Below, piece by piece: positions 1 through 64,000 of a stretch of DNA of 64,000 bases (position 1 is its first letter; each line of letters opens with the position of its first letter). Under the pieces are notes generated by a model, which saw only the letters and a program-made list of their open reading frames with translations, was not told the origin of the DNA and made no database searches. The position numbers were made by a program, and so were the translations under genes. The stretch comes from Ornithinimicrobium tianjinense (GTDB lineage: Bacteria; Actinomycetota; Actinomycetes; Actinomycetales; Dermatophilaceae). The DNA is taken from positions 62,001 through 126,000 of the forward strand of contig NZ_BMEM01000005.1 in assembly GCF_014636495.1 (NCBI RefSeq). Direction: 5' to 3'.

Positions 1-14
1 CGGTCCCGTCCGGC

Positions 15-48
15 CATTACATAACCTCACCTTTGAGGATGCATAATG
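15..48. promoter_or_regulatory. Imperfect inverted repeat and promoter before DUF4395 gene
   Basis: The arms CATTA...CCTCA and TGAGG...TAATG form an imperfect dyad (about 11 of 15 positions match). It overlaps a candidate promoter: TTACAT at 17-22 and CATAAT at 42-47, spacer 19 bp. The -10 ends 6 nt before the GTG at 54, so the transcript would be leaderless. A repressor bound at the dyad would cover the -10. The regulator is not in the window; it may lie to the left. Confidence 0.45.
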
Positions 49-53
49 TAGGG

Positions 54-566
54 GTGTCCTCTTCTCGATTCCCCGCCGTGGTCGACGACGTCACCGTCCG
101 GCTGATCGCCGGCGTGGTCCTGGCCGTCGTCCTCGTCACTGCCGTGACCCAGCAGTGGTGGCTGTTCGCCGTGCTCGCCCTCGACTTCGCCCTGCGCGCG
201 ACGGTGGGCCCGGCCGCCAGTCCGGTCGCCCAGCTCGTGCGGCGCGTGATCCGTCCGCGCGTCAGGGCCCTGCCGCACCCGACGCCGGGGGCGCCCAAGC
301 GGTTCGCCGCGGCGATCGGCGCCACGATGACCGGTGCGGCGACCCTGCTGTGGGTGTTCCACGCGGCGACCGGCAGCGGCGCCGCGATCGCGGCCGTCTA
401 CGTCATCGCCGGGGTGATGGTGCTCTTCCCGGCCCTCGAGTCGCTGCTCGGCCTCTGCGTCGGGTGCGTGATCTTCTCCTGGCTGATGCGCCTCGGCGTC
501 GTGCCCGAGTCCGTCTGCGTCGAGTGCGCCGACATCACCTCCCGCCTGCGCACCGCCTCCTCCTGA
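54..566 (+). CDS. DUF4395 integral membrane protein
   Basis: A 170-residue protein with hydrophobic stretches near residues 14-31, 33-50, 85-103 and 107-147, ending in two cysteine pairs, CVGC and CVEC, that resemble metal- or thiol-binding sites. This is the layout of actinobacterial DUF4395 membrane proteins, which are often found beside thioredoxin or rhodanese genes; the function is unknown. GTG 54 was chosen because it sits 6 nt after the -10-like CATAAT; an in-frame ATG at 39 and TTG at 33 would add 5-7 residues but overlap that -10. It is transcribed alone, 133 bp before the hut operon. Confidence 0.75.
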   Translation: MSSSRFPAVVDDVTVRLIAGVVLAVVLVTAVTQQWWLFAVLALDFALRATVGPAASPVAQLVRRVIRPRVRALPHPTPGAPKRFAAAIGATMTGAATLLWVFHAATGSGAAIAAVYVIAGVMVLFPALESLLGLCVGCVIFSWLMRLGVVPESVCVECADITSRLRTASS

Positions 567-699
567 CGATTGCTGCTGACGTCGCCGCGCTGAGGTGTCC
601 TGCTGAGGCCCCCTGCCGGCGCGAGATGTCTCGGATCTCGGACGCGGCGCTCGCGGCTCCCTCCCGCGGGCACCCCGTCCACGCCTAGAGTCAGGGGGC

Positions 700-1941
700 A
701 TGAGCGCCGCCTCCTTCGACAGCATGTGGGCCGACCTCGACCCGGTGGGACGGGCCGGCAGCGGGGGTTACCGACGCTTCGCGTGGACGGCCGAGGACCA
801 CACGCTGCGCGAGTGGTTCGCCGGGGAGTGCGCCCGACGCGGGCTGGACCTCACCGAGGACCGGGTCGGCAACCAGTGGGGCTGGTGGTGGGACGGCCCG
901 GGCACCGTCGACGAGGCGGTCGCCGCCGGCCGCAAGGCCGTCGTCATCGGCTCGCACCTCGACTCCGTCCCCGACGGCGGTGCCTTCGACGGCCCGCTCG
1001 GCGTGGTCAGCTCGCTCGCCGCCGTCGACCGGCTGCGCGCGGCCGGGGTGCGCCCCGCGGCGCCCGTCGCGGTCACCAACTTCGTGGACGAGGAGGGGGC
1101 CCGCTTCGGCATCGCCTGCGCCGGCTCCCGCGTCCTCACCGGCCAGCTCGACCGCGACAGGGCGCTCGGGCTCACCGACGCCGACGGTGTGAGCATGGCC
1201 GAGGCCCTGCGCGCCGCCGGCCGCGACCCCGACGCCTACGGCCCGGACGCGGAGGCCCTGGCGCGCGTCGGCTCCTTCGTCGAGCTCCACGTCGAGCAGG
1301 GCCGGGCGCTCGTCGACCTCGGCGCCCCGGTCGCCGTCGCCAGCGACATCTGGCCGCACGGGCGCTGGCGCTTCGACTTCCCGGGCGAGGCCAACCACGC
1401 CGGCACCACCCGCCTGGTCGACCGCCGCGACGCGATGCTCGGGTATGCCGATCTCGTGCTGGGGGCGCGCCACGTCGCCACCCAGCGGGGCTGCGTGGCC
1501 ACCGTCGGCAAGGTGCGCGTCACCCCCGGCGGCGTGAACGCCATACCCTCCCACGTCACCGGCTGGCTCGACGCGCGTGGTGCCGACGAGGACCAGGTGA
1601 TCGCGATGGTCGACGAGCTCACCGCGCGCGGGCAGGAGATGGGGGCGACCGTGACCCGCGAGAGCTGGACGCCGACCACCCGCTTCGACGCCGGGCTGAG
1701 CGAGCGGCTGCGGCGCGTGCTCGACAGCGCCGCGGGGGTCTCCGCGCCCGTCCTCGGCACCGGCGCCGGGCACGACGCGGGCATCCTGGCCACCGCGGGC
1801 GTCCCGAGCGCGATGCTCTTCGTGCGCAACCCCACCGGCGTGTCCCACAGCCCCGAGGAGCACGCCGAGGCCGACGACTGCCATGCGGGGGTCGAGGCGC
1901 TGGCCGCGTGCGTGCGCGACCTGACGGCGGCCCCGGCATGA
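700..1941 (+). CDS. M20 family amidohydrolase (allantoate amidohydrolase-like), hut operon
   Basis: A 413-residue M20/M28-type metallo-amidohydrolase. The dinuclear metal site is visible: GSHLDSVPDGG (His near residue 86, Asp 88), D then EEGARFG near 128-134, ELHVEQG near 195 and a C-terminal GVSHSPEE His near 384. By sequence type it would be named allantoate amidohydrolase. No other allantoin gene is present, and it is the first gene of an operon holding hutF and hutI, so I infer it deformylates N-formylglutamate (the HutG step). The ATG at 700 lies 8 nt after TAGAGT (686-691), suggesting a leaderless start. It overlaps the next gene by 4 nt. Confidence 0.85.
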   Translation: MSAASFDSMWADLDPVGRAGSGGYRRFAWTAEDHTLREWFAGECARRGLDLTEDRVGNQWGWWWDGPGTVDEAVAAGRKAVVIGSHLDSVPDGGAFDGPLGVVSSLAAVDRLRAAGVRPAAPVAVTNFVDEEGARFGIACAGSRVLTGQLDRDRALGLTDADGVSMAEALRAAGRDPDAYGPDAEALARVGSFVELHVEQGRALVDLGAPVAVASDIWPHGRWRFDFPGEANHAGTTRLVDRRDAMLGYADLVLGARHVATQRGCVATVGKVRVTPGGVNAIPSHVTGWLDARGADEDQVIAMVDELTARGQEMGATVTRESWTPTTRFDAGLSERLRRVLDSAAGVSAPVLGTGAGHDAGILATAGVPSAMLFVRNPTGVSHSPEEHAEADDCHAGVEALAACVRDLTAAPA

Positions 1942-2462: not shown

Positions 2463-3805
2463 GCAGCACCACCTTCCACGCGGCATACGCCCACCTGCCC
2501 ACCGGGGTCGAGCGCGACGTCCGGCTGACCGTGGACCGCGGCCGCTTCACCGCGGTCGAGACGGGTGCCGCCGCGCAGCCGGGCGACCGCGAGCTGCCCG
2601 GCGTCGTCCTGCCCGGGCTCGCCAACGCGCACAGCCACGTCTTCCACCGGGCGCTGCGGGGACGCACCCACGTCGGCGGCGGCACCTTCTGGACGTGGCG
2701 CGAGGGCATGTATGCCGTCGCCGCTCAGCTGGATCCGACGAGCTACCTCGCGCTGGCGCGGGCGGCCTACGCCGAGATGGCCCTGGCCGCGATCACCGCG
2801 GTGGGGGAGTTCCACTACCTGCACCACGGCCCGGGGGGCGCGCGCTACCTGGACCCCAACGAGATGGGCCACGCGCTCGTCGAGGCCGCCGCGGACGCGG
2901 GGATCCGGCTGACCCTGCTGGACACCTGCTACCTCGCGGGCGGGCTCGGGCCGGACGGCCACGTGCCGCTCGAAGGGCCCCAGCTGCGCTTCGGCGACGG
3001 TGACGCCCAGACGTGGGCGCTGCGGGTCGACGACCTGCGCGACCACACCGACGGCGGCCCGGCGCACGTCCGCGTGGGCGCCGCGATCCACTCGGTGCGG
3101 GCGGTGCCGCGGGAGGCGCTGGGCGTGGTCGCGTCGTGGGCCCGGCAGGGCGGCCGACCGCTGCACATCCACCTCTCCGAGCAGCCGGCCGAGAACGAGG
3201 CCTGCCTCGCCGCCCACGGCCTGACCCCGACCGGCCTGCTCGCGGCCGAGGGCGTGCTCGGCCCGGACCTGTCGGCCGTGCACGCCACGCACCTCACCGA
3301 CGAGGACGTCGCCCTGCTCGGCCAGCACAGCTGCTGGGCGTGCTTCTGCCCGACCACCGAGCGCGACCTCGCCGACGGCATCGGCCCCGCCGTCTCCCTG
3401 CGGGACGCGGGCGCCCGCCTCTCGCTCGGGTCCGACCAGCACGCGGTCGTCGACCTGATCGAGGAGGCGCGGGCGCTGGAGATGCACGAGCGCCTCGACA
3501 CCCTGCAGCGCGGCCGGTTCGCGCCGGAGGACCTCCTGGCGGCGGCCACCGCCCACGAGAGCATCGGCTGGCCGGACGCCGGACGTCTCGAGCTCGGTGC
3601 CCGCGCCGACCTGGTCGCGGTCCGCCTGGACAGCGTCCGGACCGCCGGGTCAGACCCAGCGCAGGTCCTGCTCTCCGCCACCGCGTCCGACGTCGACACG
3701 GTCGTCGTCGACGGGGCCGTCGTCGTCGAGGGCGGTCAGCACCGCCTCGGCGACGTCGGCCGCCTCCTGCACGACGCCATCACCCCGCTCTGGAAGGACG
3801 CCTGA
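2459..3805 (+). CDS. hutF: Formimidoylglutamate deiminase
   Basis: A 448-residue amidohydrolase-superfamily enzyme. The strand-1 metal motif [13 protein letters not shown] is at about residues 55-67; [16 protein letters not shown] and LGSDQHA follow as expected for the HutF family. HutF converts N-formimino-L-glutamate and water to N-formyl-L-glutamate and ammonia, the branch that bypasses HutG-type formiminoglutamase. It sits between the coupled P-loop gene and hutI. The start overlaps the upstream stop and the length is usual for the family. Confidence 0.93.
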
Positions 3806-3810: not shown

Positions 3811-5019
3811 GTGAGCATGCTCATCACCGGGATCCACGAGCTCGTCACCTGCGACGAGACCCTCGACGGGGCCGTCGAGGAGGAGCTGCACGCCCGCCTC
3901 GGCCTCCTGCGGGACGCGGCCGTCGTCATCGCCGGCGGCGGCGAGGACAGCGCACCTGTCGTCGAGTGGGTCGGTCCCGCGTCGCAGGCGCCGGCCGCCG
4001 ACTGGGCCATCGACCTCGAGGGCCGGGCGGTGATCCCGGGCTTCGTCGACAGCCACAGCCACCTCGTCTTCGCCGGCGACCGCTCGGCGGAGTTCGCCGC
4101 CCGGATGTCGGGCACGCCCTACGACGGCGGCGGCATCGCCACGACCGTGGCCGCCACCCGCGGCGCCGACGACGCCGAACTGCGCACGTTGATCCAGCAC
4201 CGTGTCCAGGAGATGCGCGCCCAGGGCACCACGACGGTGGAGATCAAGAGCGGCTACGGGCTCTCCGTCGCCGACGAGGTCCGGGCGCTGCGGCTGGCCA
4301 GGGAGGTCACCGAGGAGACGACCTACCTCGGCGCGCACGTGGTGCCGCCGGACCACCGGGACGGCGGGGAGGCGGGGCGCGCGGCATACCTGGACCTGGT
4401 CTGCGGCGAGATGCTCGAGGCGTGCGCGCCCCACGCGCGCTGGATCGACGTCTTCTGCGAGCCGGCGAGCCCCTACGCGTTCACCGGGGAGGAGTCGCGG
4501 CGGATCCTCGAGGCGGGTCGCGCCGCGGGGCTCGAGCTGCGCGTCCACGGCAACCAGCTCAGCGAGGGCCCCGGCGTGCAGCTGGCCGTGGAGCTGGGCG
4601 CCGCGAGCGTCGACCACTGCACCTTCCTCACCGACGCCGACGTCGACGCGCTCGCCGGCAGCGACACCGTCGCGACCCTGCTCCCGGGCGTGGAGTTCTC
4701 CACCCGCCAGCCCTACCCGGACGCGCGCCGCCTCCTGGGGGCCGGCGTCGACGTGGCGATCGCGACCGACTGCAACCCGGGCACCTGCTACTCCTCCTCG
4801 ATGCCGCTCATGGTCGCGCTGGCCGTCCGCGAGATGGGTATGACGCCCGCCGAGGCCCTGCGAGGGGCGACCGTCGTCGCGGCGAAGGCGTTGCGCCGCA
4901 ACGACATCGGCACCATCGCGGTGGGTCGGCGGGCGGACCTCGCCGTGGTCGACGCGCCGAGCTGGCTGCACATCCCCTACCGCGTCGGCGTCCCGCTGGT
5001 GCGCGCCCTGGAGGTCTAG
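3811..5019 (+). CDS. hutI: Imidazolonepropionase
   Basis: A 402-residue amidohydrolase that opens 4-imidazolone-5-propanoate to N-formimino-L-glutamate, the substrate of HutF encoded just upstream. Visible motifs are [12 protein letters not shown] (metal His pair), EIKSGYGL, the [15 protein letters not shown] segment and [10 protein letters not shown] with the metal Asp. GTG 3811 is preferred because GGAAGG at 3792-3797 is 13 nt upstream; ATG 3817 is the alternative. The gene begins 5 nt after the hutF stop. hutH and hutU are not in the window. The stop codon overlaps the -10 of the next gene. Confidence 0.93.
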
Positions 5020-5028: not shown

Positions 5029-5457
5029 GTGGACATCCCGGAGATCAACTACCTCGCCGTCGTGCTGGCCGTCGTCGCCTCGATGCTGGTCGGCTTCGTC
5101 TTCTACCACCCGAAGGTGCTCGGCACCCGGTGGATGCGGGCGATCGGCCACGACGAGCGGTCGGTCTCCGAGGGCGGCGGCAGCTGGGTCTACGGCGTCG
5201 TCCTCGTCTCCAGCTTCGTCACCGCGTGGGTGCTCGCGGGCGCGACGTGGCTCTCCCACGAGTTCTACGGCGGGTCTTTCCTGGTCAACGGCCTGGTCAC
5301 AGGGCTGATCCTCTGGGTCGGCTTCACCGCCGCGCGGGTGGTCGTGCACGACGGTTTCGACCCGCGCGGCTTCCGGGTCACGCCATACACGCTGCTCAAC
5401 GGGCTGCTCACCGTGCTGGCGATGGCGCTGGTCATCGGGCTGATGCCGCCGGGCTGA
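5029..5457 (+). CDS. DUF1761 membrane protein
   Basis: A 142-residue protein with four predicted membrane helices (about residues 8-26, 50-72, 80-100 and 120-138) and the SMLVGFVFYHPKVLG segment after helix 1 that typifies DUF1761. Function unknown. The GTG start lies 6 nt after TAGGCT (5017-5022), which itself overlaps the hutI stop, so it probably has its own leaderless transcript in addition to any read-through from hutI. A short GC hairpin, GCGCC/GGCGC, follows the stop near 5460-5473. Confidence 0.8.
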   Translation: MDIPEINYLAVVLAVVASMLVGFVFYHPKVLGTRWMRAIGHDERSVSEGGGSWVYGVVLVSSFVTAWVLAGATWLSHEFYGGSFLVNGLVTGLILWVGFTAARVVVHDGFDPRGFRVTPYTLLNGLLTVLAMALVIGLMPPG

Positions 5458-5491
5458 GGCGCCTGTCGGCGCACTCTGGCAGGGTCGAGGT

Positions 5492-6976
5492 ATGACGCAG
5501 CAGTCGAGTCCTCGCCCCGTCCGCAACCGTCCGCTCACCCTCACCTTCCTCGGTGCCTCCGGGACCGTCACCGGGTCCAAGTACCTCCTCACCGTGGGTG
5601 AGCGGCGCGTCCTCGTGGACGCCGGCGTCTTCCAGGGGGAGAAGCACTGGCGACTGAAGAACTGGGAGGAGTTCCCGGTCGACCCGGCGACGCTGAGCGA
5701 CGTCGTCCTCACCCACGCCCACACCGACCACATCGGCTACCTGCCGGCGCTCGTCGACCAGGGCTTCGCCGGGCAGGTCTGGCTGACCGAGGGCAGCGCG
5801 GTGATCGGCGAGATCGTGCTGCGCGACGCGGGCAAGCTGCAGGAGGAGGCGGCCGAGGAGGCCCGGCGGCACGGCTGGTCCAAGCACGAGGAGCCGCAGC
5901 CGCTCTTCGACCTGCAGGACGTCGAGCGGACCCTGCCGCTGTTCCGGACGGTGGCCTTCGACGAGGACGTCGACCTCGGGGACGGGCTCGTCGCGCGGTG
6001 GACGCGGGCCGGTCACATCCTCGGCTCGGCGAGCGTGCGCCTGGAGGTCGACGGCCACGACGTGCTGTTCTCCGGCGACCTCGGCCGCCACGACCACCCG
6101 CTGCTCAAGCCGCGCGGCACACCGGCGGGCGCGCGCTACGTCGTGTGCGAGTCGACCTACGGCGACCGCGAGCACCCCGAGCCGGTGGTTGAGCACCAGG
6201 CGATGGCCGACGCCGTCCGCCGCACCGTGGACCGCGGCGGCCTGGTCGTCATCCCGGCCTTCGCCGTCGACCGGACCCAGGCGGTGCTCAAGGTGCTGGT
6301 CACGCTCATGCGGGAGGGGCGCATCCCCGAGGTCGACGTCGCGGTCGACTCGCCGATGGCGCTCAAGGTGCTCGACGCCTACCGAAACAGCTCGCTCGGC
6401 GAACTGCGGGACGACGTCGACGTCGACGACTTCACCGCGCTGCCGCGGCTGATCGAGGCCGCCACCTCGCAGCAGTCCCGGGCGCTGAACCGGCGTAACG
6501 ACCCGATGATCATCGTCGCGTCCTCCGGGATGGCCGAGGGCGGGCGCGTCCTGCACCACCTCGCCCGCCTCCTCCCCGACGAGCGCAACACCGTCATCCT
6601 CACCGGCTACCAGGCCGCCGGCACCCGGGGGCGGGCGCTGGAGGAGGGGGCCGGCTCGGTCAAGATCAACGGGCACTACGTCAAGGTCCGGGCCGAGATC
6701 GTCCGCGACCACGAGTTCTCGGTGCACGGCGACGCGAGCGACCTGGTGGACTGGCTCACCGCGCTCGACCCGGTGCCCGACACGGTCTTCGTCACGCACG
6801 GCGAGCAGGACGTCGCCGAGCACTTCGCCGCACGCGTCGAGGACACGCTCGGCTGCCCCGCGGTGGTCCCGAGGTATGGCGAGGTCGTGTCCCTGGTGCC
6901 CGGTGCGCCCGACCCGGCCGACCTCGACCTCCCCGTGCCGGCGCAGCCTGGCCCGGGCGAGGAGCCGAAGGACTGA
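5492..6976 (+). CDS. MBL-fold/beta-CASP RNA-processing nuclease
   Basis: A 494-residue cytosolic metallo-beta-lactamase with beta-CASP and Zn-dependent RMMBL domains, the architecture of CPSF73/YSH1-like ribonucleases. The zinc motif HAHTDHIGYLP is near residues 75-85, SGDLGRHDHP near 195, the beta-CASP SSGMAEGGRVLHHL near 350 and the terminal His in VFVTHGEQD near 435. It probably processes or degrades RNA; it is shorter than RNase J and lacks that protein's C-terminal domain. The ATG follows GGTCGAGG. Downstream comes a 33-bp tandem repeat rather than a clear terminator. Confidence 0.85.
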   Translation: MTQQSSPRPVRNRPLTLTFLGASGTVTGSKYLLTVGERRVLVDAGVFQGEKHWRLKNWEEFPVDPATLSDVVLTHAHTDHIGYLPALVDQGFAGQVWLTEGSAVIGEIVLRDAGKLQEEAAEEARRHGWSKHEEPQPLFDLQDVERTLPLFRTVAFDEDVDLGDGLVARWTRAGHILGSASVRLEVDGHDVLFSGDLGRHDHPLLKPRGTPAGARYVVCESTYGDREHPEPVVEHQAMADAVRRTVDRGGLVVIPAFAVDRTQAVLKVLVTLMREGRIPEVDVAVDSPMALKVLDAYRNSSLGELRDDVDVDDFTALPRLIEAATSQQSRALNRRNDPMIIVASSGMAEGGRVLHHLARLLPDERNTVILTGYQAAGTRGRALEEGAGSVKINGHYVKVRAEIVRDHEFSVHGDASDLVDWLTALDPVPDTVFVTHGEQDVAEHFAARVEDTLGCPAVVPRYGEVVSLVPGAPDPADLDLPVPAQPGPGEEPKD

Positions 6977-7110: not shown

Positions 7111-7201
7111 GGCACGTCATACCGCGGTCGCACTGCGATGGGGCGAGGTCGAGCCTGCGGGAGGAGGTGCGGGCTGGCCGTGGCACCTACGCTTCCTGAT
7201 C

Positions 7202-8434
7202 ATGCCCCGACCGACCGACGACGTCCCTGACCTCTGGCGCCACCCCTGGGCGCCGGACCTCGCGGTGGTCGGCGCGCTGCTCCTGTGGGCCCTGGTCAGC
7301 GGGGTGGTGGGCGGGTTCCTCAGCGTCTCCCTGGGGATGGTCATGGTCCTGCCGCTGCTGTGGCGCCGCCGGGCCCCGCTGGTCGCGGCGCTCGGCGTGG
7401 CGCTCGTCTGCCTGGTGCAGGTGGCGGTCATGGACCAGCCGCACCCGGCCGACGTGGCGGTGCCGATCGCGGTCTACAGCGCCGCCGCGTTCGGGACGCG
7501 CACCGAGTCGCGACTGGTGCTGCTCCTGGGCCTGCTCGGTGCGGGGATCGCCGCCCTGGACTGGCGCAACGTCTACGTCCACCCGCTCGATCAGCTCCCG
7601 CAGATCGCCTTCCAGGCCTTCTTCATGGCGATGTTCCTGGGGGTCGCGTGGGTGCTCGGCGACGTCGTCCGGCGCCGCAAGGCCGTCCTCGCGCGCCTCG
7701 CCGAGCAGAACGCCGCGCTCGCGCGCGACCACGCGCAGCGCACCAGGCTGGCCTCGCAGGAGGAGCGGGCCGCGATCGCCCGCGAGATGCACGACGTCGT
7801 GGCGCACAGTCTCGCGGTCGTGGTGGTCCAGGCCGACGGTGCCCTGTATGCCGCGCGCCGCGCCCTCGACGCCCCGCCCGGGATCGCGGCCGACCGGGCG
7901 GCCCTGGAGCGCGCCGCCCAGACGCTGGAGACCCTGGCCGAGACGGCCCGCAGCTCGCTGGCCGACACCCGCCGGCTGGTGGGGGTGCTGCGCGAGGAGG
8001 GCTCCGGGGCGGAGTTCTCGCCGCTGCAGGAGCTGGCCTACCTGGACGAGCTGGCTCAGGGGGTGCGCGACTCCGGCGTCGCGGTCGACGTCGTCGTCCG
8101 GGGCCAGGTCGACGACCTGCCGCGCGAGGTCGACCTGGCGGCCTACCGGGTCGTGCAGGAGTCGCTGACCAACGTGCTCAAGCACGCCGGCCCGCACGCC
8201 ACCGTCGACGTCGACGTGCTGCGGACCCCCGCCGTGCTCCTGGTCCGGGTCACCGACGACGGCGCTGGCCAGGCGAGCGACGGGGACGGCGAGGGCAACG
8301 GCATACTCGGCATGTCCGAACGGGTCGAGGTGCTCGGCGGGACCGTCCACGCCGGGCCGCGCACCCGCGGCGGCTGGGAGGTCGTCGCGAGCCTGCCGGT
8401 CGAGCCGGCCCCGAGCGCAGGAGGAGCAGCGTGA
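7202..8434 (+). CDS. Sensor histidine kinase, NarL/DesK type
   Basis: A 410-residue HisKA_3 kinase. Residues about 15-155 form four to five membrane helices with short loops and no large extracellular sensor domain. A coiled linker (about 160-185) leads to the phospho-His motif IAREMHDVVAHSLAVV near 195-210, then the HATPase domain with TNVLKHAG (N box), VTDDGAGQ and GILGMSERV. It phosphorylates the response regulator whose GTG overlaps its stop. ATG 7202 lies 8 nt after TACGCT (7188-7193). The stimulus is unknown. Confidence 0.9.
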   Translation: MPRPTDDVPDLWRHPWAPDLAVVGALLLWALVSGVVGGFLSVSLGMVMVLPLLWRRRAPLVAALGVALVCLVQVAVMDQPHPADVAVPIAVYSAAAFGTRTESRLVLLLGLLGAGIAALDWRNVYVHPLDQLPQIAFQAFFMAMFLGVAWVLGDVVRRRKAVLARLAEQNAALARDHAQRTRLASQEERAAIAREMHDVVAHSLAVVVVQADGALYAARRALDAPPGIAADRAALERAAQTLETLAETARSSLADTRRLVGVLREEGSGAEFSPLQELAYLDELAQGVRDSGVAVDVVVRGQVDDLPREVDLAAYRVVQESLTNVLKHAGPHATVDVDVLRTPAVLLVRVTDDGAGQASDGDGEGNGILGMSERVEVLGGTVHAGPRTRGGWEVVASLPVEPAPSAGGAA

Positions 8435-9420: not shown

Positions 9421-9680
9421 CGCTCGGCGCGTCGCGCGGCCTGCGCCGCCCGCTGCCGACGCTCGTCTTCCTCGTCGCGACCGTGCTCTCCGTGTGGGGG
9501 CTCGCCGTCGCCATGCAGACCATCCCGACCGGCACCGCGTATGCCGTCTGGACCGCCACCGGAGCCTCGCTCACCGTGCTGTGGGCGATGGCGCGCGGGA
9601 CCGAGCCGACGACCCTGACCCGCGTGCTGCTGCTGCTCGGCATCGTCGCCAGCGTCGTCGGACTCAAGGTGGTGTCCTGA
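9252..9680 (+). CDS. SMR-family exporter subunit 1 (Gdx/SugE-like) with triplicated N-terminal helix
   Basis: The last 105 residues (from GTG 9366) are a complete small multidrug resistance protein: four helices, the helix-1 Glu in GVLEAVWA, and the IPTGTAYAVWT motif typical of the guanidinium-exporter (SugE/Gdx) branch. Upstream, helix 1 is repeated twice in frame (units of 54 and 60 bp), so the full 142-residue frame carries three copies of helix 1, each with its Glu. Only GTG 9252 has a Shine-Dalgarno (GAGGAGC, 9239-9245), which favours the long form; GTG 9306 and 9366 are alternative starts. It is followed one base later by its SMR partner. Confidence 0.8.
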   Translation: MDWTILIASGVLEAQWASVDWTILIASGVLEAVWASAPVDWTILIASGVLEAVWASALGASRGLRRPLPTLVFLVATVLSVWGLAVAMQTIPTGTAYAVWTATGASLTVLWAMARGTEPTTLTRVLLLLGIVASVVGLKVVS

Positions 9681-10222: not shown

Positions 10223-10315
10223 CGGGTGCGTCATACCCGGGTCTGACCCGGCACCCCTCAGCTCGGGCCCCCGGGTGGACCCGGCCCGCGGTCGGCCGCT
10301 CCTAGCGTCTGCGGC

Positions 10316-48902: not shown

Positions 48903-48908
48903 AGTATG
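48903..48908 (-). promoter_or_regulatory. -10-like box of the dap operon
   Basis: CATACT on the minus strand, 6 nt before the dapB GTG; TTTTTG 17 bp further upstream is a weak -35. The box overlaps a GTATGACG copy of the window-wide motif. The 226-bp gap 48897-49122 shows nothing else recognisable. Confidence 0.4.
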
Positions 48909-53299: not shown

Positions 53300-53375
53300 A
53301 AAGCCGCACCTGTGCGAGCAAGCGCTTACGGCGGGGCACGCGCACGGCATACCCGGAACGACTCGGTCCCCCCCG

Positions 53376-55022: not shown

Positions 55023-55970
55023 TCAGGCGCTGAGCTGACGCAGCCGCGTATCCCGACCTACAGCGCAGTCGGGGCCGCACGCCGACGGCCGGCCGGTCCA
55101 CCCCCTGGCGATCTGCACGAGGGCCACGTCGACGGCCAGCTCGCACGGCCGCTCGACGACCTCGATCCACCCGGCGCGCAGGCTCACCTCCCCACGGCCA
55201 GCAAACTCCCGGTCCCGGCCGCGGTCGCGCACCTGACGCTCGCGGTGCCACAGGTCACCGTCGATCTCCAGGCCGATCCCCCGCTCGCGATCCCGGAAGT
55301 CCAGCGTCCGCGACCGCCCGTCGGCCTGCGCCTGGAGCCCGTCCATGGGGGCCTGCCGTTCCATCGTCGGCAAGCCGTGGGGACGCTCGACGCGCTCGAC
55401 ATACCGGACCTCGGCCACGCTGCCCAGGCCCTCGGCAGCTGCGATCAAGATCTCGCTGAGCGCCCCGGCGCGAGGATGCCGGGGGTGGTGGGCGAGCTCG
55501 GCACGGAGCTCGGCGACCGTGACCTTCCTGCGGCTCACTGCCCTGGTGATCAGAGCGACATCGTCGTCGGGAGTCCTCCCGGGCATGGCCAGCACATCGA
55601 GCACCGTCTGCGCCGCCGACGTCACCGGTATGCCGTAACGCCGGACCCGTGTCAGTCGTCGGCGACGACGCACACGGACTCCGGGCAGGGTGGTGCGCCG
55701 GTGAGTGTTCGCCGGCTCGGCCAGGGTGAGGATCTGTGGTTCACGGTCGGCCAGGTTCCAGAGGCTGAGGGCACACTCCAGGCTGGCGACAGCCCCGTCA
55801 CCGCGGGCGAGCGTGGCGGCCATCAGCCGTTGGCGCCACGTCGGCGTGCTGGTGTGAGTCAGGTAGACACCTGGGTGCAACCGTTGCCACCGCCCGGTCC
55901 GCAGGAGGTGTCGCACGGCGGCTGGGGAGTGGTCGGCGAGTGCGTGCTGCCTGGTGATGACGTCCCTCAC
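55023..55970 (-). CDS. AbiEi-type HTH plus DUF559-like endonuclease-fold protein
   Basis: A 315-residue protein. The N-terminal 50 residues match the AbiEi_4-type wHTH (ITRQHALADHSPAAVRHLL, then GRWQRLHPGVYLTH); the middle is the helical AbiEi-like region; the C-terminus (about 220-300) has TLDFRDRERGIGLEIDGDLW then RDRGRDREF, the pattern of the DUF559/Vsr-like nuclease fold with its acidic residues. Such proteins are frequent in actinobacteria and are labelled type IV antitoxin-like; function is unproven and no toxin gene is adjacent. It is bracketed by inverted 57-bp repeats. Confidence 0.82.
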   Translation of the reverse strand: MRDVITRQHALADHSPAAVRHLLRTGRWQRLHPGVYLTHTSTPTWRQRLMAATLARGDGAVASLECALSLWNLADREPQILTLAEPANTHRRTTLPGVRVRRRRRLTRVRRYGIPVTSAAQTVLDVLAMPGRTPDDDVALITRAVSRRKVTVAELRAELAHHPRHPRAGALSEILIAAAEGLGSVAEVRYVERVERPHGLPTMERQAPMDGLQAQADGRSRTLDFRDRERGIGLEIDGDLWHRERQVRDRGRDREFAGRGEVSLRAGWIEVVERPCELAVDVALVQIARGWTGRPSACGPDCAVGRDTRLRQLSA

Positions 55971-56230: not shown

Positions 56231-58093
56231 TCACGCCTCGCCCGCCGCGGCGACCAGCTGCTCCCACGTCACGCTGCGGGGGGTGCCGGCGCGGTCGGGC
56301 GTGGCTAATGCAGCGATGGCGCGGCTGAGGGCCTCGCGGCCGAGCTCCTCGCCGAACCGGTCCACCACCAGCACCGCCCGCGGCCGCGCGAGCCCGCCCA
56401 GGTCCTCGCGGACCGCGGCCATCAGCTCCACCGCGACGGCGTCGAGGTCGGGGTCGCTGCCTGCGCCGTCGGAGAGCACCACGGCCGCCACGATCGCCCG
56501 GCCCAGCGCCACGTCCTTGCGCACGGTCACCCGCGCGGCGGCCACGAACGGGTGGTCGGTCAGCACCTCGCGCACCTCGCCCAGCGACACCAGCTGCCCC
56601 GACACCGACACGACGTCGTCGGCCCGGCCGAGGAAGCTGATCGACCCGTCCGCATCGCGCACCGCCAGGTCGCCCGTGCTGTAGACGCCCGGGTGCCGCT
56701 CCCAGTGGCCCCAGTGGTCACGGTCCGTGGAGCCCTCCACGCCCACGAGCACCCCGGCCCAGGGCCTGCGCAGCACCACCTCGCCGGGTTCGCCATCGGG
56801 CACGAGGCGCCCGGCGGGGTCGACCAGGTCGATCCCGCAGCCCGGCATCGGCGGCCGCTCGCCCGGGCCGGTGACGCGCACGATGCCGCCCAGCTCCAGC
56901 TGGCCCCACGCGTCGAGCACCTCCAGGTCGCCCCCGCCGAACGCCTCGACCAGCCACGTCGCCAGCTCGGCCTCGACCGGCTCGCCCGCCGTGGCGATCC
57001 GCCGCAGCGTCGGCGCCGACCCCAGCGCGCGCATGTCCCGCGCCCACCCACGGATGGTCCGCATGACGGACGGGCTCGTGACGAGCGTCTCCACGCCATA
57101 CCGGCGGACGATCTCCCACGCGCGCCCGTGGTGGGGCACGTCGAGGGTCCCCTCGTACATCACCGACGCGTCGCCCCAGGCCAGCGGCCCGTAGACCCCG
57201 TGGAACTGCGTCACCGCCCACGCGATGTCGCCGGCGCACCAGAACGGCCCGCCCGTGCGCAGGTGCCCGTGCACCGCGATCGCGCTGGCCAGCACCGCCG
57301 CCGTCCCGTGGACGACCGAGACCTGCTGCCCGGCGCGCGCCGCGATCGGCACCGACGCGACCGGGTGCTCGGCGTCCAGGGCGACCGGCTCGTCCTCGGA
57401 GGTATGCCGTGCCCGTCCGCTCTCCCCGCGGCGGGGGCGCGGCACCGTCGCGACGACGTCGTGGTACCAGCGGTCGCCCTCGTACCAGGCGACGTCCATC
57501 CCGGTCCGGCGCACGACGATGGTGTGCTGGACGCTGCCGACAGCCGCCAGGGCGTCGTCGACGCGCGCCTTGAGCGGCAGCACGGTCCCGTGGCGCCATG
57601 CGCCGTCCTGGGTGAAGAGGACCTTGAGGTCGAGCAGGGCGAGCCGGTCGGCGAGCGGGCCGGCCGGCAGCGACGACGGGAGCACGCTGTGGACCGCGCC
57701 GATCCGGGCGCAGGCGAGCATCGCGACGACGGTCTCCGGCAGCCAGCCGAGGTGCAGCCCGACACGGTCGCCCGGACCCACGCCCATCCCGCGCAGCGCC
57801 CGCGCGAGACCGACGACCTGCTCGTGCAGCTCGCGGTAGGTCAGGTCGCGCCGGTCGCCCGGCTCGCCCTCCCAGTGCACGGCCACCGCGTCGCCGCGCT
57901 CCTCGAGGTGCCGGTCCAGGCAGGTGACGGACAGGTTGAGCCGTGCGCCGGTCAGCCACCGTCCGTCGTCGCCCCACAGCGCGGTCGGCGGCTCGAGCAG
58001 GTGCATCCGCGCGGCGACGTCCGCCCACGCCTCGCTCGGCGGCAGCGGCGTGACCGGCTCGCCGACGATCCGCGGGGGACGTGCGTCAGCCAT
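56231..58093 (-). CDS. Acetyl-CoA-synthetase-like protein lacking catalytic motifs
   Basis: A 620-residue ANL-superfamily protein aligned along its length with acetyl/propionyl-CoA synthetases: LNLSVTCLDRHLEERGDAVA, LTYRELHEQV, GVGPGDRVGLHLGWLPE, GDIAWAVTQFHGVYGPL, ATAGEPVEAE and YSTGDLAVRDADGSISFLGRADDVVSVSG (in parts). The ATP phosphate loop (normally TSGSTGxPKG) is replaced by VVHGTAAVLASAI, and the C-terminal catalytic Lys motif (PKTRSGK) by FGEELGREALSRA. It is probably unable to adenylate. It overlaps the IclR gene by 8 nt and may bind acyl-CoA or acyl ligands as a regulator or partner. Confidence 0.85.
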   Translation of the reverse strand: MADARPPRIVGEPVTPLPPSEAWADVAARMHLLEPPTALWGDDGRWLTGARLNLSVTCLDRHLEERGDAVAVHWEGEPGDRRDLTYRELHEQVVGLARALRGMGVGPGDRVGLHLGWLPETVVAMLACARIGAVHSVLPSSLPAGPLADRLALLDLKVLFTQDGAWRHGTVLPLKARVDDALAAVGSVQHTIVVRRTGMDVAWYEGDRWYHDVVATVPRPRRGESGRARHTSEDEPVALDAEHPVASVPIAARAGQQVSVVHGTAAVLASAIAVHGHLRTGGPFWCAGDIAWAVTQFHGVYGPLAWGDASVMYEGTLDVPHHGRAWEIVRRYGVETLVTSPSVMRTIRGWARDMRALGSAPTLRRIATAGEPVEAELATWLVEAFGGGDLEVLDAWGQLELGGIVRVTGPGERPPMPGCGIDLVDPAGRLVPDGEPGEVVLRRPWAGVLVGVEGSTDRDHWGHWERHPGVYSTGDLAVRDADGSISFLGRADDVVSVSGQLVSLGEVREVLTDHPFVAAARVTVRKDVALGRAIVAAVVLSDGAGSDPDLDAVAVELMAAVREDLGGLARPRAVLVVDRFGEELGREALSRAIAALATPDRAGTPRSVTWEQLVAAAGEA

Positions 58094-58835
58094 GGCCGAG
58101 AGTCCTTCCGGCGGCTCGCGCCGCCCGTTCGAGGTATGCCGCGACCTCCGCCGCGCGCGCCTCGCCCTCGGGGGTGGCCGGGTCGGTGCCGGGCAGCTCG
58201 GCCGCCAGCGCACCGACGGCAGCCCCGGCCGCGTCGAGGACGGGGACGGCGACCTCGGCCGGAAGGGTGAGGTCGGCGGGCCGGTGGGCGAGCCAGTCGG
58301 CGGTGGCCCAGGCGCGGCGTGAGGCGTCGTCGGCGTCACCGCCACGTGCGCACGCCAGGCCCCAGGCCTCCTCGTCGCCGCGGGCGGCCAGGAGCCGGCC
58401 GCCGGCGGTCGTCAGGGCCGGCAGGACCCGGTGGCTCTCGCGGAAGGGGCTGGAGGCGACCGAGTCCACGCGATCGACATACACGACCTCGCCGCGGACG
58501 AGGACCTCGACGTGCACGGTCGCGCCGACCTGGTCGCGCACCTGGGAGAGGTAGGGGGAGAGGGCGCCGAGGAGGGGCAGCCGCGCGAGGTAGTGGTGCG
58601 ACAGGCGGCTCAGCTCGGGGCCGAGGCCGTAGCGCGAGGTGGCCGGGTCCTGGACCGCGAGGTCGGCCAGCACGAGGGAGCGCAGCAGGCGGTGGACGGT
58701 GGGGATCGACATCGAGGAACGCTCGGCGAGGTCGGTCAGCTGGTGGTAGGCCGGGCCCTCCGCGAGCAGCTCGAGAAGCTGCACCGCGTTGCGGACGGTC
58801 CCCAGGCCACCACGGCCGGGGTCGTTGGTCGCCAC
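58086..58835 (-). CDS. IclR-family transcriptional regulator
   Basis: A 249-residue IclR protein. HTH: AVQLLELLAEGPAYHQLTDL and SSMSIPTVHRLLRSLVLADL; effector domain from about residue 75 with VHVEVLVRGEVVYVDRVDS and LPALTTAGGRLLAA. It is divergent from the Liv transporter operon and coupled to the synthetase-like gene, so it probably controls both in response to the imported or activated acid. GTG 58835 follows GAGAGAGG; GTG 58841 is possible. Confidence 0.9.
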   Translation of the reverse strand: MATNDPGRGGLGTVRNAVQLLELLAEGPAYHQLTDLAERSSMSIPTVHRLLRSLVLADLAVQDPATSRYGLGPELSRLSHHYLARLPLLGALSPYLSQVRDQVGATVHVEVLVRGEVVYVDRVDSVASSPFRESHRVLPALTTAGGRLLAARGDEEAWGLACARGGDADDASRRAWATADWLAHRPADLTLPAEVAVPVLDAAGAAVGALAAELPGTDPATPEGEARAAEVAAYLERAARAAGRTLGHG

Positions 58836-59882: not shown

Positions 59883-61885
59883 GCAACCGGACCTCTGCCG
59901 CGATCGGGGGGGACACGGGGGGCGGAGCCCCCCGTGCGACCACCTTCCCGCGCCTCCTCGACACTCTCGCCGCCGAGCGCCCCGACGGGGTCGCGATGCA
60001 GGAGAAGCTCTACGGCATCTGGCAGCCCCTCACCTTCTCCGACTACCGCCGCCGCGTCGAGGACTTCGCCCACGGCCTGGCCGGTTATGGCGTGCAGCGC
60101 GGCGAGATCGTCGCCGTCCTCGGCGACAACCGCCCCGAGTGGCTCATCGCCGAGCTGGCCGCGCAGGCCATCGGCGCCGCCGTCGTCGGCATCTACCCGA
60201 CCTCGATCGGCGAGGAGCTGGAGCACATCCTGCGGATGTCGGCCGCGCGCGTCGTCGTCGCCGAGGACCAGGAGCAGGTCGACAAGCTGCTGCGCCTGCG
60301 CGACACCACGCCCGACCTGCCCGTCGAGCGCGTCGTCTTCTACGACCCGCACGGCCTGGAGTCCTACGACGACCCGTGGCTGGTCGACTTCACCGAGGTC
60401 GAGCGCGCCGGGCGGCAGCGGGCCGACGCCGACCCCGGTTGGTATGCCGCGCAGGTCGCCCTGGGTGCGCCCGACGACGTCGCCGTCATCTGCACGACGT
60501 CCGGCACCACCTCCCGGCCCAAGCTGGGCGAGCTGTCGCACGCCAACCTGCTCGCGATGGCCGACCACCTCACCGAGTTCGACCCGGCCGACCACACCTA
60601 CCGCTACGTCTCCTTCCTGCCCTTCGCGTGGATCGGCGAGCAGATGCTGGCGGTGGCGATCGGCCTGTCCCGCGGCCTGACGCTGTCCTTCCCCGAGGAC
60701 GCCTCGACCCAGCGCTCGGACCTGCGCGAGATCGGTCCGGACGTGATGTTCTCCCCGCCCCGGATCTGGGAGTCGATGCTCTCGGAGGTCCAGGTCCGCA
60801 TCGACGAGGCCGGCTGGCTCAAGCGCACGGTCTTCGGCTGGGGCTACGACATCGGTGACCGTGCCGCGCAGGCCCGCACCCAGGGCCGCAAGGGCGGCAA
60901 CGCCGTGCTCACGTGGCTCGCCGACCAGGTGAGCACCCGCCCGGTCCGCGACCAGCTCGGCCTGGCCCGAATCCGCCGGGCCTACACCGGCGGCGCCCCG
61001 CTCGGCCCGGACGTCTTCCGCTTCTTCCACGCCATCGGCGTCAACCTCAAGCAGCTCTACGGGCAGACCGAGATCTGCGGCATCGCCGTGGTCCACCGCG
61101 ACGACGCGATCTCCTTCAACACCGTCGGCACCCCGATCCCGGGCACCGACCTGAGGATCAGCGACGACGGCGAGATCCTGCTGCGCTCGGCCTCGGTCTT
61201 CCGCGGCTACCACAAGCAGCCGGAGGAGACGGCCAAGGTCGTCGACGCCGAGGGCTGGCTGCACACCGGCGACGCCGGCTACCTCGACGAGCGCGGCCAG
61301 CTCGTGGTCATCGACCGCCAGAAGGACGTGCTCACCGCCCCCGACGGCAGCCGCTACTCCAGCCAGTTCATCGAGAACAAGCTCAAGTTCAGCCCCTACG
61401 TCGAGGAGGCCGTCGTCTTCGGCCCGCAGCAGGCCGGCGAGCCGATGACCGCGATGATCACCATCGACCCCGGCACGGTCGGGTCGTGGGCCGAGCACGA
61501 GCGGCTCAGCTACACGACATACACCGACCTCGCCGCGAAGGAGGAGGTCTACGACCTCCTGGCCGAGGAGGTCACCCGGGCCAACGAGGACCTCCCGGAG
61601 TCGATCCGGGTCGGGCGCTTCCTGCTGCTCCACAAGCAGCTCGACCCCGACGACGACGAGATCACCCGCACCCGCAAGGTGCGCCGCAACGTCATCGACG
61701 AGCGGTATGCCGACCTCATCGCCGCCCTCCGCCGGGGTGACGACCAGGTCGGGATCACCAGCCGGATCACCTACCAGGACGGCACGTCGGTCGTCCGCGA
61801 GCTGGCGCTGCGCATCTTCGACCTGTCGACCTACACGATCCCCCCCGGCCGCGGCCGCCGTCCCGTCTGGAGCGGCCGGCGCTGA
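59879..61885 (+). CDS. AMP-dependent long-chain-type acyl-CoA ligase in Liv operon
   Basis: A 668-residue ANL enzyme with an intact ATP loop, ICTTSGTTSRPKLGELSH (about residues 203-220), ANL motifs YGQTEICGIAVVH and WLHTGDAGYLDERGQLVVIDRQKD, and EITRTRKVRRNVIDERYA at the C-terminus where the catalytic Lys is expected. The first loop Pro-Lys-Gly is PKLG. It should activate the acid delivered by the transporter to its CoA thioester. ATG overlaps the livG stop by 4 nt. It contrasts with the inactive-looking relative at 56-58 kb. Confidence 0.88.
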   Translation: MSNRTSAAIGGDTGGGAPRATTFPRLLDTLAAERPDGVAMQEKLYGIWQPLTFSDYRRRVEDFAHGLAGYGVQRGEIVAVLGDNRPEWLIAELAAQAIGAAVVGIYPTSIGEELEHILRMSAARVVVAEDQEQVDKLLRLRDTTPDLPVERVVFYDPHGLESYDDPWLVDFTEVERAGRQRADADPGWYAAQVALGAPDDVAVICTTSGTTSRPKLGELSHANLLAMADHLTEFDPADHTYRYVSFLPFAWIGEQMLAVAIGLSRGLTLSFPEDASTQRSDLREIGPDVMFSPPRIWESMLSEVQVRIDEAGWLKRTVFGWGYDIGDRAAQARTQGRKGGNAVLTWLADQVSTRPVRDQLGLARIRRAYTGGAPLGPDVFRFFHAIGVNLKQLYGQTEICGIAVVHRDDAISFNTVGTPIPGTDLRISDDGEILLRSASVFRGYHKQPEETAKVVDAEGWLHTGDAGYLDERGQLVVIDRQKDVLTAPDGSRYSSQFIENKLKFSPYVEEAVVFGPQQAGEPMTAMITIDPGTVGSWAEHERLSYTTYTDLAAKEEVYDLLAEEVTRANEDLPESIRVGRFLLLHKQLDPDDDEITRTRKVRRNVIDERYADLIAALRRGDDQVGITSRITYQDGTSVVRELALRIFDLSTYTIPPGRGRRPVWSGRR

Positions 61886-61906: not shown

Positions 61907-62779
61907 ATGTCAACCTTCCTCAACCTGCTGGTCTACGGCCTGGCCGACGGCGCCATCCTCGCGCTCGCCGCCCTCGGCTTCGTCCTCATCTACAAGGCGA
62001 CCTCGGTCATCAACTTCGCCCAGGGCGAGTTCCTGCTCGTCGGCGCCTACATGTTCTACACGGCGTTCGTCGTGCTCGGCCTGCCGCTCGTCGCGGCGGT
62101 GCTCGTCGGCGTCGTCGTCGCCACGCTCATCGGTGTGCTCGTCGAGCGTTTCATCCTGCGGCCGATGATCGGCGAGGACCCGATCAGCATCATCATGGTG
62201 ACGATCGGCCTGTCGATGCTGCTCAAGGCCCTGGTGCAGATGTTCTACGGCACCAGCCCCAAGAGCCAGCCGGCCATCCTGCCGCGCAGCTCGGTGGAGT
62301 TCCTCGGCGCGACCGTGCCGCTCAACCGGCTGCTCGTCATCCTCATCGCCGCGGTGGTGCTGACCGCCTTCACGATCTTCTTCCGCCGCTCCCGGCACGG
62401 CATCGCGATGCGCGCCGTCGCCGACGACCAGCAGGCGGCGATGACGATGGGCATCTCGGTGCGCCGCATCTTTGCCCTGGCGTGGGTGCTGGCCGCGGTG
62501 AGCGCGCTGATCGCCGGCGTGCTCCTCGCCGACATCAGCGCGGTCGACCAGAACCTCGCCGGCTTCGGCCTCATGGTCTTCCCGGTCGTCATCCTCGGCG
62601 GCCTCGACTCGGTCCCCGGCACGATCGTCGGCGGCCTGATCATCGGCCTGCTCACCCAGTTCGTCTCCGGCTACCAGGACCCGGGGCTGGCCACCGTGGT
62701 CCCGTACGTCGTGCTGGTGCTCATCCTCCTGGTGCGCCCCTACGGGCTCTTCGGCGAGACGCGGATCGAGAGGGTCTGA
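61907..62779 (+). CDS. Liv-type ABC permease, LivH-like
   Basis: A 290-residue permease with about eight helices. The N-terminal LADGAILALAALGFVLIYKATSVINFAQGEF (in parts) is the LivH signature, GIAMRAVADDQQAAMTMGI is the coupling loop and VVILGGLDSVPGTIVGGLIIG ends the core. AAGGAG precedes the ATG. Works with LivM and the ATPases. Confidence 0.93.
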   Translation: MSTFLNLLVYGLADGAILALAALGFVLIYKATSVINFAQGEFLLVGAYMFYTAFVVLGLPLVAAVLVGVVVATLIGVLVERFILRPMIGEDPISIIMVTIGLSMLLKALVQMFYGTSPKSQPAILPRSSVEFLGATVPLNRLLVILIAAVVLTAFTIFFRRSRHGIAMRAVADDQQAAMTMGISVRRIFALAWVLAAVSALIAGVLLADISAVDQNLAGFGLMVFPVVILGGLDSVPGTIVGGLIIGLLTQFVSGYQDPGLATVVPYVVLVLILLVRPYGLFGETRIERV

Positions 62780-62782
62780 CCG

Positions 62783-63847
62783 ATGTCCAACGTGACCGCC
62801 ACCGGCATCTACCACCGGACCTACGCCTCCGAGCTGCGCCTGCGCAGCACCCGCGCGGAGTACGTCCGCCTCGGCCTGATGGTCGTGCTGCTGCTCGTCC
62901 TGCCGTTCGTGCTCGACAACTACTGGCTCTCGATCGTCAACACGATCCTCATCGCGGTGATCGGCGCCGTCGGCCTGAACATCCTCGTGGGCTACACCGG
63001 CCAGATCTCCCTGGGCCAGGGCGGCTTCATGGCCGTCGGTGCCTACAGCTCGGCGATCCTCGCCGAACGGATGGGCATGCCCGTTCCGGTCGCCATCGTC
63101 CTCGCCGTGCTCCTCACCGCCGCGATCGGCACCTTCTTCGGGCTGCCGGGCCTGCGGCTCAAGGGCCTCTACCTGGCGATCGCGACGCTGGCCTCCCAGC
63201 AGATCATCGAGTTCGTCATCCGCCGCTGGGGCTGGCTCACCGAGGACCGGGGCTACATCACCCTGGACCGGCTCTCGATCTTCGGCTGGACGCTGCCGCG
63301 CGAGTCCTTTGAGCAGAGCTGGTACTGGATCCTCATGCTCCTCGCGCTGCTCGCCGTGCTGGCCGCCCGCAACCTCTTCCGCACCGGACTGGGGCGCAGC
63401 TTCATGGCCGTGCGCGACCAGGACATCGCGGCCGAGGCGATCGGCGTCAACCTCACCACCGCCAAGCTCACCGCCTTCGCCGTCTCCAGCGGCTTCGTCG
63501 GCCTCGCCGGGGCGCTCACCGCGCACTACACCGAGACGGTCACCTGGGAGGCGTTCACGCTCAACGTCTCGATCACCTACCTGGCGATGATCATCGTCGG
63601 CGGCCTCGGCAGCATCGCCGGGGCGGTCTACGGGGCGATCTTCATGTCGCTGCTGCCGGTGCTCATCCGCACCGTCGCCGACGTCGTCGGCCCGGCCGCG
63701 CCGTGGCTGTCCAACCAGCTGCCGGCGATCCAGAACGCCGTCTTCGGCCTGGTGATCATCCTCTTCCTCATCATCGAGCCCCGCGGCCTCAACAGGCTGT
63801 GGGAGCGGATGAAGGAGTACGTCCGCTACTGGCCGTTCCGCTACTGA
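62783..63847 (+). CDS. Liv-type ABC permease, LivM-like
   Basis: A 354-residue permease. About 38 cytosolic residues precede eight to nine helices. Family motifs: NILVGYTGQISLGQGGFMAVG, FGLPGLRLKGLYLAIATLA, SFMAVRDQDIAAEAIGVNL (coupling loop) and MIIVGGLGSIAGAVYGA. It begins 3 nt after the livH stop. Confidence 0.93.
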   Translation: MSNVTATGIYHRTYASELRLRSTRAEYVRLGLMVVLLLVLPFVLDNYWLSIVNTILIAVIGAVGLNILVGYTGQISLGQGGFMAVGAYSSAILAERMGMPVPVAIVLAVLLTAAIGTFFGLPGLRLKGLYLAIATLASQQIIEFVIRRWGWLTEDRGYITLDRLSIFGWTLPRESFEQSWYWILMLLALLAVLAARNLFRTGLGRSFMAVRDQDIAAEAIGVNLTTAKLTAFAVSSGFVGLAGALTAHYTETVTWEAFTLNVSITYLAMIIVGGLGSIAGAVYGAIFMSLLPVLIRTVADVVGPAAPWLSNQLPAIQNAVFGLVIILFLIIEPRGLNRLWERMKEYVRYWPFRY

Positions 63848-63919
63848 CCCGGCGCACCCCGACCCGACCCTGACAGACCACTCACGCACACGCCATACCC
63901 ACCCTCTGAAGGAGAAATC

Positions 63920-64000
63920 ATGAACGCACGACGCGGTGCACTCATCGCCTCTCTCGCCGCGCTGGCGCTCGGCCTGTCCGCCTGCGGCGGCGGCGACGGT
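63920..64000 (+). CDS. Substrate-binding lipoprotein of the Liv-type transporter, 5' end only
   Basis: The first 27 codons are present; the window ends inside the gene. MNARRGALIASLAALALGLS is a lipoprotein signal with lipobox LSAC followed by a Gly-rich linker. GGAGAAATC is the Shine-Dalgarno. Position after livH-livM makes a periplasmic-type binding protein the expected product. Confidence 0.75.
   Translation, partial: MNARRGALIASLAALALGLSACGGGDG

Follow-up and report, generated by a model that had tools for sequence, protein, structure and literature searches.

Genome-wide DNA uptake sequences have been described only for the Neisseriaceae and the Pasteurellaceae, as far as the portions of the literature at hand extend (PMC3630211; PMC1939737). 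In the Neisseriaceae, the DNA uptake sequence (DUS) recognized by the receptor ComP is a short non-palindromic word that is present in thousands of copies in genic as well as intergenic DNA, and its dialects follow the family tree, with some members having no obvious one (PMC3630211, in the part available). Likewise, the uptake signal sequence (USS) of the Pasteurellaceae, for which ComN/PpdA is the predicted receptor, occurs genome-wide without orientation bias and as two related words (excerpts of PMC3630211; PMC12616744; PMC1939737). Here we describe a comparable word from a Gram-positive phylum, the octamer GTATGNCG, which is highly repeated in a stretch of 64,000 nucleotides of Ornithinimicrobium tianjinense (contig NZ_BMEM01000005.1, positions 62,001 to 126,000; referred to as the window) and in the entire genome of this species (G000; 3,309,481 bases, 3.31 Mb, in 12 contigs). 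Based on its density, its even distribution over both strands, the related words carried by further genera, its scarcity in mobile DNA, and the presence of ComEA, ComEC and Tad pilus genes, GTATGNCG is probably a DNA-uptake-type self-recognition sequence with dialects, served by Tad pili together with ComEA and ComEC. For the same reasons an uptake-type sequence fits best among the candidates that had been listed in a first-pass annotation of the window. A Chi-like site, also listed there, or one oriented with replication is unlikely in view of the strand balance.

Analysis of the whole genome revealed 2,772 copies of GTATGNCG (1,349 forward and 1,423 reverse) compared to 251 copies (115 forward and 136 reverse) of the reversed control word. 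This comparison, which had been set beforehand, demonstrated that the excess is not restricted to the window. With 8 bases each, the 2,772 copies represent 0.67% of the 3.31 Mb; known uptake words reach thousands of copies and up to about 1% of a genome. The extended consensus, gGTATGCCGtg, consists of a G in 72% of the copies, GTATG, C in 65%, CG, T in 49% (G in only 4%) and finally G in 60%.

The abundance of the word could not be attributed to base composition or codon use. In 464 kb of pooled sequence from the same genome (the window and 20 stretches of 20 kb each), the main form GTATGCCG was observed 265 times, compared to 6.3, 7.8 and 16.7 copies expected from Markov models of order 1, 2 and 3, respectively, and 72.6 copies expected from order 4, a model into which the larger part of the word is already built; the count thus exceeded every expectation in this second check set beforehand. 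Within the 383 kb of predicted coding sequence (CDS), whose borders are approximate because genes were called by a simple custom rule, GTATGCCG was found 209 times, in contrast to 11.0 copies after a shuffle of synonymous codons among the predicted genes that preserved every protein and the overall codon use. As claimed in the first-pass annotation, all six frames are occupied (19, 34 and 137 CDS sites of the 464 kb in the sense frames and 28, 55 and 39 in the antisense frames), and the agreement of Markov models, codon shuffle and frame counts bears out its statement that the word is a structure of the DNA rather than a codon preference. Three sites near 48129, 51391 and 53346 that it had placed between genes were located at or inside the starts of open reading frames according to our crude gene calls. 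Its underlying point nevertheless held, as non-CDS DNA of the 464 kb contained 1.05 sites per kb (81 sites) relative to 0.80 per kb in CDS (311-312 sites), with 14 more sites at the edges; by these same calls the word is tolerated in coding and denser in non-coding DNA, similar to DUS and USS. Moreover, 137 of the 201 TAT codons and 39 of the 69 ATA codons lie inside copies of the word, although these copies cover only 0.7% of the sequence, so that codons otherwise avoided by the genome are spent on the word. The commonest frame, TAT GCC, accounts for 137 of about 312 CDS sites, as might be expected if the word were an artefact of codon usage or mutation. However, such an artefact was ruled out by the synonymous shuffle and by the occurrence of sites in six frames and in non-CDS DNA, and can be dismissed for practical purposes, all the more since the near-identical word GTACGCCG is strongly depleted in this genome (9 copies compared to 55.6 after codon shuffle). 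Part of the latter depletion is due to a general lack of GTAC in the CDS (368 observed, 943 by synonymous shuffle within the 383 kb), which possibly reflects restriction avoidance.

In the window, which has a GC content of 73.6%, exact matching yielded 69 copies of GTATGNCG (36 on the + and 33 on the - strand) among 72 occurrences of GTATG. The hand count of the first-pass annotation, about 69, was therefore exact, and so was its division into four forms. By strand, these comprise GTATGCCG (27 on the + and 17 on the - strand), GTATGGCG (2 and 8), GTATGACG (4 and 4) and GTATGTCG (3 and 4). The three GTATG words without a following NCG were all recovered no more than a few bases away from the positions stated there (17576, 42000 and 44404), and the composition-based expectation of about 2 copies of GTATGCCG is fair at this GC content. 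The sites are as follows, as exact matches in window numbering:
1443..1450, + strand, GTATGCCG
1539..1546, - strand, GTATGGCG
2481..2488, - strand, GTATGCCG
2710..2717, + strand, GTATGCCG
4382..4389, - strand, GTATGCCG
4838..4845, + strand, GTATGACG
5381..5388, - strand, GTATGGCG
5490..5497, + strand, GTATGACG
6874..6881, + strand, GTATGGCG
7115..7122, - strand, GTATGACG
7846..7853, + strand, GTATGCCG
8299..8306, - strand, GTATGCCG
9539..9546, + strand, GTATGCCG
9855..9862, + strand, GTATGCCG
10229..10236, - strand, GTATGACG
11844..11851, - strand, GTATGGCG
12420..12427, + strand, GTATGCCG
12711..12718, + strand, GTATGCCG
14161..14168, + strand, GTATGCCG
14649..14656, - strand, GTATGCCG
15236..15243, + strand, GTATGTCG
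16843..16850, - strand, GTATGCCG
17550..17557, - strand, GTATGCCG
18340..18347, + strand, GTATGACG
19218..19225, - strand, GTATGACG
19616..19623, + strand, GTATGCCG
20764..20771, - strand, GTATGACG
23792..23799, - strand, GTATGCCG
23831..23838, - strand, GTATGCCG
26065..26072, + strand, GTATGCCG
26531..26538, + strand, GTATGCCG
26988..26995, - strand, GTATGCCG
27938..27945, + strand, GTATGCCG
28369..28376, - strand, GTATGGCG
29515..29522, + strand, GTATGCCG
29818..29825, - strand, GTATGGCG
30010..30017, - strand, GTATGCCG
31319..31326, + strand, GTATGCCG
31616..31623, + strand, GTATGCCG
32880..32887, - strand, GTATGCCG
34897..34904, - strand, GTATGGCG
36250..36257, + strand, GTATGTCG
36350..36357, - strand, GTATGCCG
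36648..36655, + strand, GTATGCCG
37274..37281, + strand, GTATGGCG
39162..39169, - strand, GTATGTCG
39989..39996, + strand, GTATGCCG
41475..41482, - strand, GTATGCCG
42090..42097, + strand, GTATGTCG
45802..45809, + strand, GTATGCCG
45959..45966, - strand, GTATGCCG
48130..48137, + strand, GTATGCCG
48548..48555, - strand, GTATGCCG
48904..48911, + strand, GTATGACG
51391..51398, + strand, GTATGCCG
51969..51976, - strand, GTATGCCG
52896..52903, + strand, GTATGCCG
53345..53352, - strand, GTATGCCG
54249..54256, + strand, GTATGCCG
55397..55404, - strand, GTATGTCG
55628..55635, + strand, GTATGCCG
57094..57101, - strand, GTATGGCG
57402..57409, + strand, GTATGCCG
58134..58141, + strand, GTATGCCG
58475..58482, - strand, GTATGTCG
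60442..60449, + strand, GTATGCCG
61515..61522, - strand, GTATGTCG
61705..61712, + strand, GTATGCCG
63891..63898, - strand, GTATGGCG

The occurrence in both orientations seen in the window extends to all 17 stretches analyzed from 11 genomes, each with its own word, in which the two strands did not differ from 50:50 (two-sided P 0.18 to 1). A strand bias of 75:25 was excluded at P < 0.05 in 14 of these stretches, the other three being small samples; on contig C1 of G000 (1-200 kb), 85 and 89 sites were found on the two strands, which has a probability of 1e-11 under a 75:25 bias. Balance was judged within long stretches rather than by mapped replichores. These data bear on a possible role of the word as a Chi-like recombination site for RecBCD, which had to be taken seriously because this enzyme is encoded in the window by three consecutive genes, a RecBCD enzyme in an actinobacterium:
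15515-17338, - strand, RecD
17338-20769, - strand, RecB-like
20766-24236, - strand, RecC
Like GTATGNCG, Chi sites are over-represented octamers, and they vary between genera, as does the word described here. In contrast to Chi, however, the word has no orientation bias, and known Chi words come nowhere near its 20-fold excess over the codon shuffle. The strand balance thus makes a Chi site very unlikely, and a site resembling the FtsK-orienting polar sequences (KOPS) unlikely.

The distribution of GTATGNCG along the chromosome provides further points of comparison. The word is scarce in mobile DNA, as are DUS and USS: two prophages, recognized by phage families (integrase, tape-measure, endolysin and others) and inserted in comEC of sister species, contained 3 sites in 46.2 kb (sampled ends) compared to 17 sites in 30.5 kb of host flanks, and a low-GC island (L013:9195-20000; 59-66% GC), which encodes a phage integrase as well as a Type ISP enzyme with fused restriction and modification functions, contained only 3 sites in about 11 kb. 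Density was also low, at 18 sites in 40 kb, where the genes for ribosomal proteins, tuf and rpoBC (assigned by visual inspection) are located. Among 406 sites, neighbors less than 60 bp apart formed 10 inverted and 3 direct pairs, counted irrespective of terminator position; these may or may not correspond to the inverted pairs near gene ends known for DUS and USS. Between species at 77.5% and 81.8% identity, a copy was retained in place in 8 of 35 and 4 of 44 comparisons, respectively. The word thereby did no better than the control words GCATGNCG (4 of 23 and 14 of 50) and GTAGGNCG (2 of 6 and 6 of 14); these comparisons are not independent, as pairs were counted from both sides and the second set represents one locus against 11 others. 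Density is kept between species while positions change, as predicted for a genome-wide drive and not for fixed functional sites. A chromosome-organising site bound by a nucleoid or segregation protein would agree with the genome-wide and fairly even spacing of the word, which is random or slightly more even than random (across five contig stretches, the coefficients of variation of the gaps were 0.74, 0.96, 0.73, 1.01 and 0.82, with all but one below 1). We nevertheless give such a site very little chance, since the word has no orientation, its positions turn over between species, and its scarcity in mobile DNA and in constrained genes is better explained by drive. In addition, known segregation sites are far sparser than about 0.8 copies per kb.

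An uptake-type sequence could have arisen as follows. Double-stranded DNA containing the word would be preferred by a receptor on the cell surface, for which ComEA or a minor pilin of the TadE type from a Tad/Flp pilus is the likeliest candidate, ComEC would import one strand, and homologous recombination would fix the incoming DNA. Because fragments with the word would be taken up more often, the word would accumulate by molecular drive on either strand wherever the protein tolerates it, whereas foreign DNA and the most constrained genes would remain poor in it. Drift of the receptor preference, followed by the genome-wide word, might then give rise to dialects between genera. We infer from these genomic data both uptake as the driving process and the pilus and receptor involved.

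A survey of 150 genomes (at least 95% complete) of the family, taken as GTDB Dermatophilaceae, which NCBI splits into Ornithinimicrobiaceae, Intrasporangiaceae and perhaps others, identified 86 genomes rich in GTATGNCG and 64 poor ones, with 800 or more copies as our threshold for rich and nine genomes at 340-800 copies. Of 48 genera, 23 were entirely rich, 23 entirely poor and 2 mixed; 24 of the 26 genera represented by two or more genomes were uniform, based on genus grouping rather than a tree. None of 38 genomes from other families of the order reached 800 copies. A similar picture emerged from the 25 of 80 named loci that were counted, each with about 22 kb around comEC: 21 copies were found in Ornithinimicrobium cavernae, 24 in Phycicoccus elongatus, 17 in Arsenicicoccus bolidensis, 30 in Flexivirga endophytica and 5 (in 13.5 kb) in Ornithinimicrobium sp. 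CNJ-824, compared to 0 or 1 in two Janibacter and none in Intrasporangium flavum and Phycicoccus jejuensis. The ComEC of G000 shares 70% identity with that of Ornithinimicrobium sp. CNJ-824 and 53% with that of O. cavernae in the best segment, which places G000 close to this genus.

Some genera poor in GTATGNCG carry another, related word instead. Whole-genome counts revealed 1,204 copies of GTATGCGG in G050 compared to 107 of its control, with a ratio to control of at most about 3 (42 copies, G022) in the other 39 genomes. GGATGCCG reached 763 copies per Mb in G046 and 987 in G056, with lower values in G031 (382; weak also in sampled sequence) and in G078, which belongs to another family (407), above a baseline of 93-224 per Mb in the other 36 of 40 genomes. 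For this word ratios to the reversed control are less useful, since values of 5.1 (G033) and 6.6 (G041) were reached at ordinary density. The remaining candidates were evaluated in sampled sequence (60 to 160 kb per genome) against shuffled codons, yielding 85 copies of GTACGCCG compared to 20.5 expected in G053, 60 of CGTACGTC compared to 9.7 in G054, 24 of GGATGCCT compared to 2.0 in G078, and 33 of GTAGCGGC compared to 5.6 in G022, which may thus have its own word. Within the GTATGNCG group itself the free base also varies, with A being preferred in G057 and about as common as C in G033, and C being nearly strict in G037. The word list of G056 is headed by a repeat contained in its sample, no clear word was evident in 40-97 kb each of G032, G036, G038, G039, G040, G049 and G058, and G044, where gene calls covered 7 of 40 kb, lies outside this survey. 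A poly-A word in the Nocardioides set proved to be false, originating from masked bases that had been turned into A.

Lineage-specific alternatives are also known for the octamer HIP1 (highly iterated palindrome) of cyanobacteria, a highly repeated word replaced in some lineages by alternate HIPs with a cognate methyltransferase (PMC4390886, in the part available). By analogy, a methyltransferase could recognize GTATGNCG while a repair bias both creates and preserves its sites, and dialects would follow changes of the enzyme. This is the strongest rival to an uptake role, and the all-or-none specificity with a free N described below is enzyme-like. However, GTATGNCG is asymmetric, in contrast to the palindromic, methyltransferase-paired HIP1, and the two methyltransferase families searched do not track it: C5-methyltransferases of PF00145 and members of PF01555 occur sporadically in 25 and 20 of 58 genomes, respectively, and 13 motif-rich genomes contain neither. 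To our knowledge, actinobacteria also mostly lack MutS and MutL, on which the HIP-type model leans. Overall, we regard a methylation-linked word as unlikely.

For DNA uptake, in turn, the competence genes for which the first-pass annotation had advised a search are present. G000 has genes for ComEC (826 aa) and for a ComEA that combines SLBB and helix-hairpin-helix domains. It also contains at least three tad loci (on C1, C2 and C3). ComEA was detected by family models; a regular-expression search found it in 2 of 19 loci. The C1 locus adjoins a gene that reads like ftsZ, and the C2 locus comprises CpaF, TadC and two TadE-like proteins, one of them below the Pfam cut-off. The C3 cluster was rejected as the uptake machine, since only 12 of 31 members of the genus have a close CpaF ortholog. 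Of 97 relatives, 96 have TadE. It is missing from G036, the one genome searched of genus g7, both genomes of which are motif-poor. Similar gene sets are found in the actinobacterium Micrococcus luteus, whose genome contains comEA, comEC and two tad loci, both needed for transformation; the term 'uptake sequence' is absent from that report (PMC4322843).

Several observations weigh against an uptake-type word. Most motif-poor genomes likewise contain genes for Tad and ComEC, and ComEC is incomplete in only 3 of 64 motif-poor genomes (G022, G138 and G139), compared to 5 of 86 motif-rich genomes in which it is incomplete (G002, G015, G017 and G169) or was not found (G184). Loss of ComEC as the cause of motif loss, first suggested by G022, the sole motif-poor genome of the genus, was therefore rejected; since motif-rich and motif-poor genomes cannot be told apart by whether ComEC is intact, the uptake machine is at best necessary for the motif. 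Type IVa pili, which carry the known receptors for uptake sequences as minor pilins, seem to be absent from G000, as PilM (PilM_2) had no match there. Single-mismatch words occur in graded excess for known uptake sequences, including USS (PMC1939737, in the part available), whereas all 24 such words of GTATGNCG together numbered 306 in G000 relative to 291 expected, a ratio of 1.05 that falls below 1 outside the N position, which carries the slight excess. Given this lack of excess, recognition looks all-or-none at seven bases with N free, which differs from both DUS and USS; it may indicate a more stringent receptor, in which case any near-miss that became the word by mutation would be retained. 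Furthermore, GTAC words resembling the GTACG types are raised 3-5 fold in loci of Nocardioides, Kribbella and Streptosporangiales, making the GTACG words of G053 and G054 the weakest dialects. Finally, we found no uptake or transformation experiment on the word, and no receptor for it has been identified. Apart from the missing mismatch gradient, the word shows the genomic behavior of DNA uptake sequences. We do not assign it to the known DUS/USS class, given the different type of pilus and the putative nature of its uptake.

Taking these points together, we lean towards a separate origin of the uptake-sequence strategy in Gram-positive Actinomycetota via Tad/Flp pilins rather than type IVa pili. 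A single family would then comprise at least three dialects that are clear (GTATGNCG and its variants, GTATGCGS and GGATGCCG), probably more (GTACGCCG, CGTACGTC and GTAGCGGC), and one (GGATGCCT) in another family of the order. A search of the open-licence literature, with subscription papers and preprints outside its scope, showed no earlier report of the word among the top matches listed. If true, this would represent a third case, and one in Gram-positive bacteria, in which the strategy evolved anew on the basis of another pilus, and the question of whether uptake sequences are a selected barrier or a by-product of a biased receptor would become testable across independent origins. On a practical level, the addition of a single octamer might decide whether these actinobacteria take up a given DNA.

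Additional observations concern other repeated words and the comEC locus. Words containing the palindrome TGCGCA were about 3-4 fold above the codon shuffle in G039, G054, G056 and loci of Phycicoccus and Janibacter. In the Kribbella loci L128 and L134, CG-flanked GTAC words are raised, such as GTACGACG with 25 copies compared to 5.0, and L128 contains 35 copies of GTACGNCG in 22 kb. In G022 the comEC alignment (L064:7177-8504) ends just before the contig end, consistent with either a break in the gene or a join made during assembly. The sister species G002 and G017 (L065-L068) have comEC interrupted by a prophage of about 40 kb whose integrase belongs to PHROG 95, and the PF03772 matches in G138 and G139 begin at about the same point as this insertion, suggesting that phages of this family may commonly use comEC as their attachment site.

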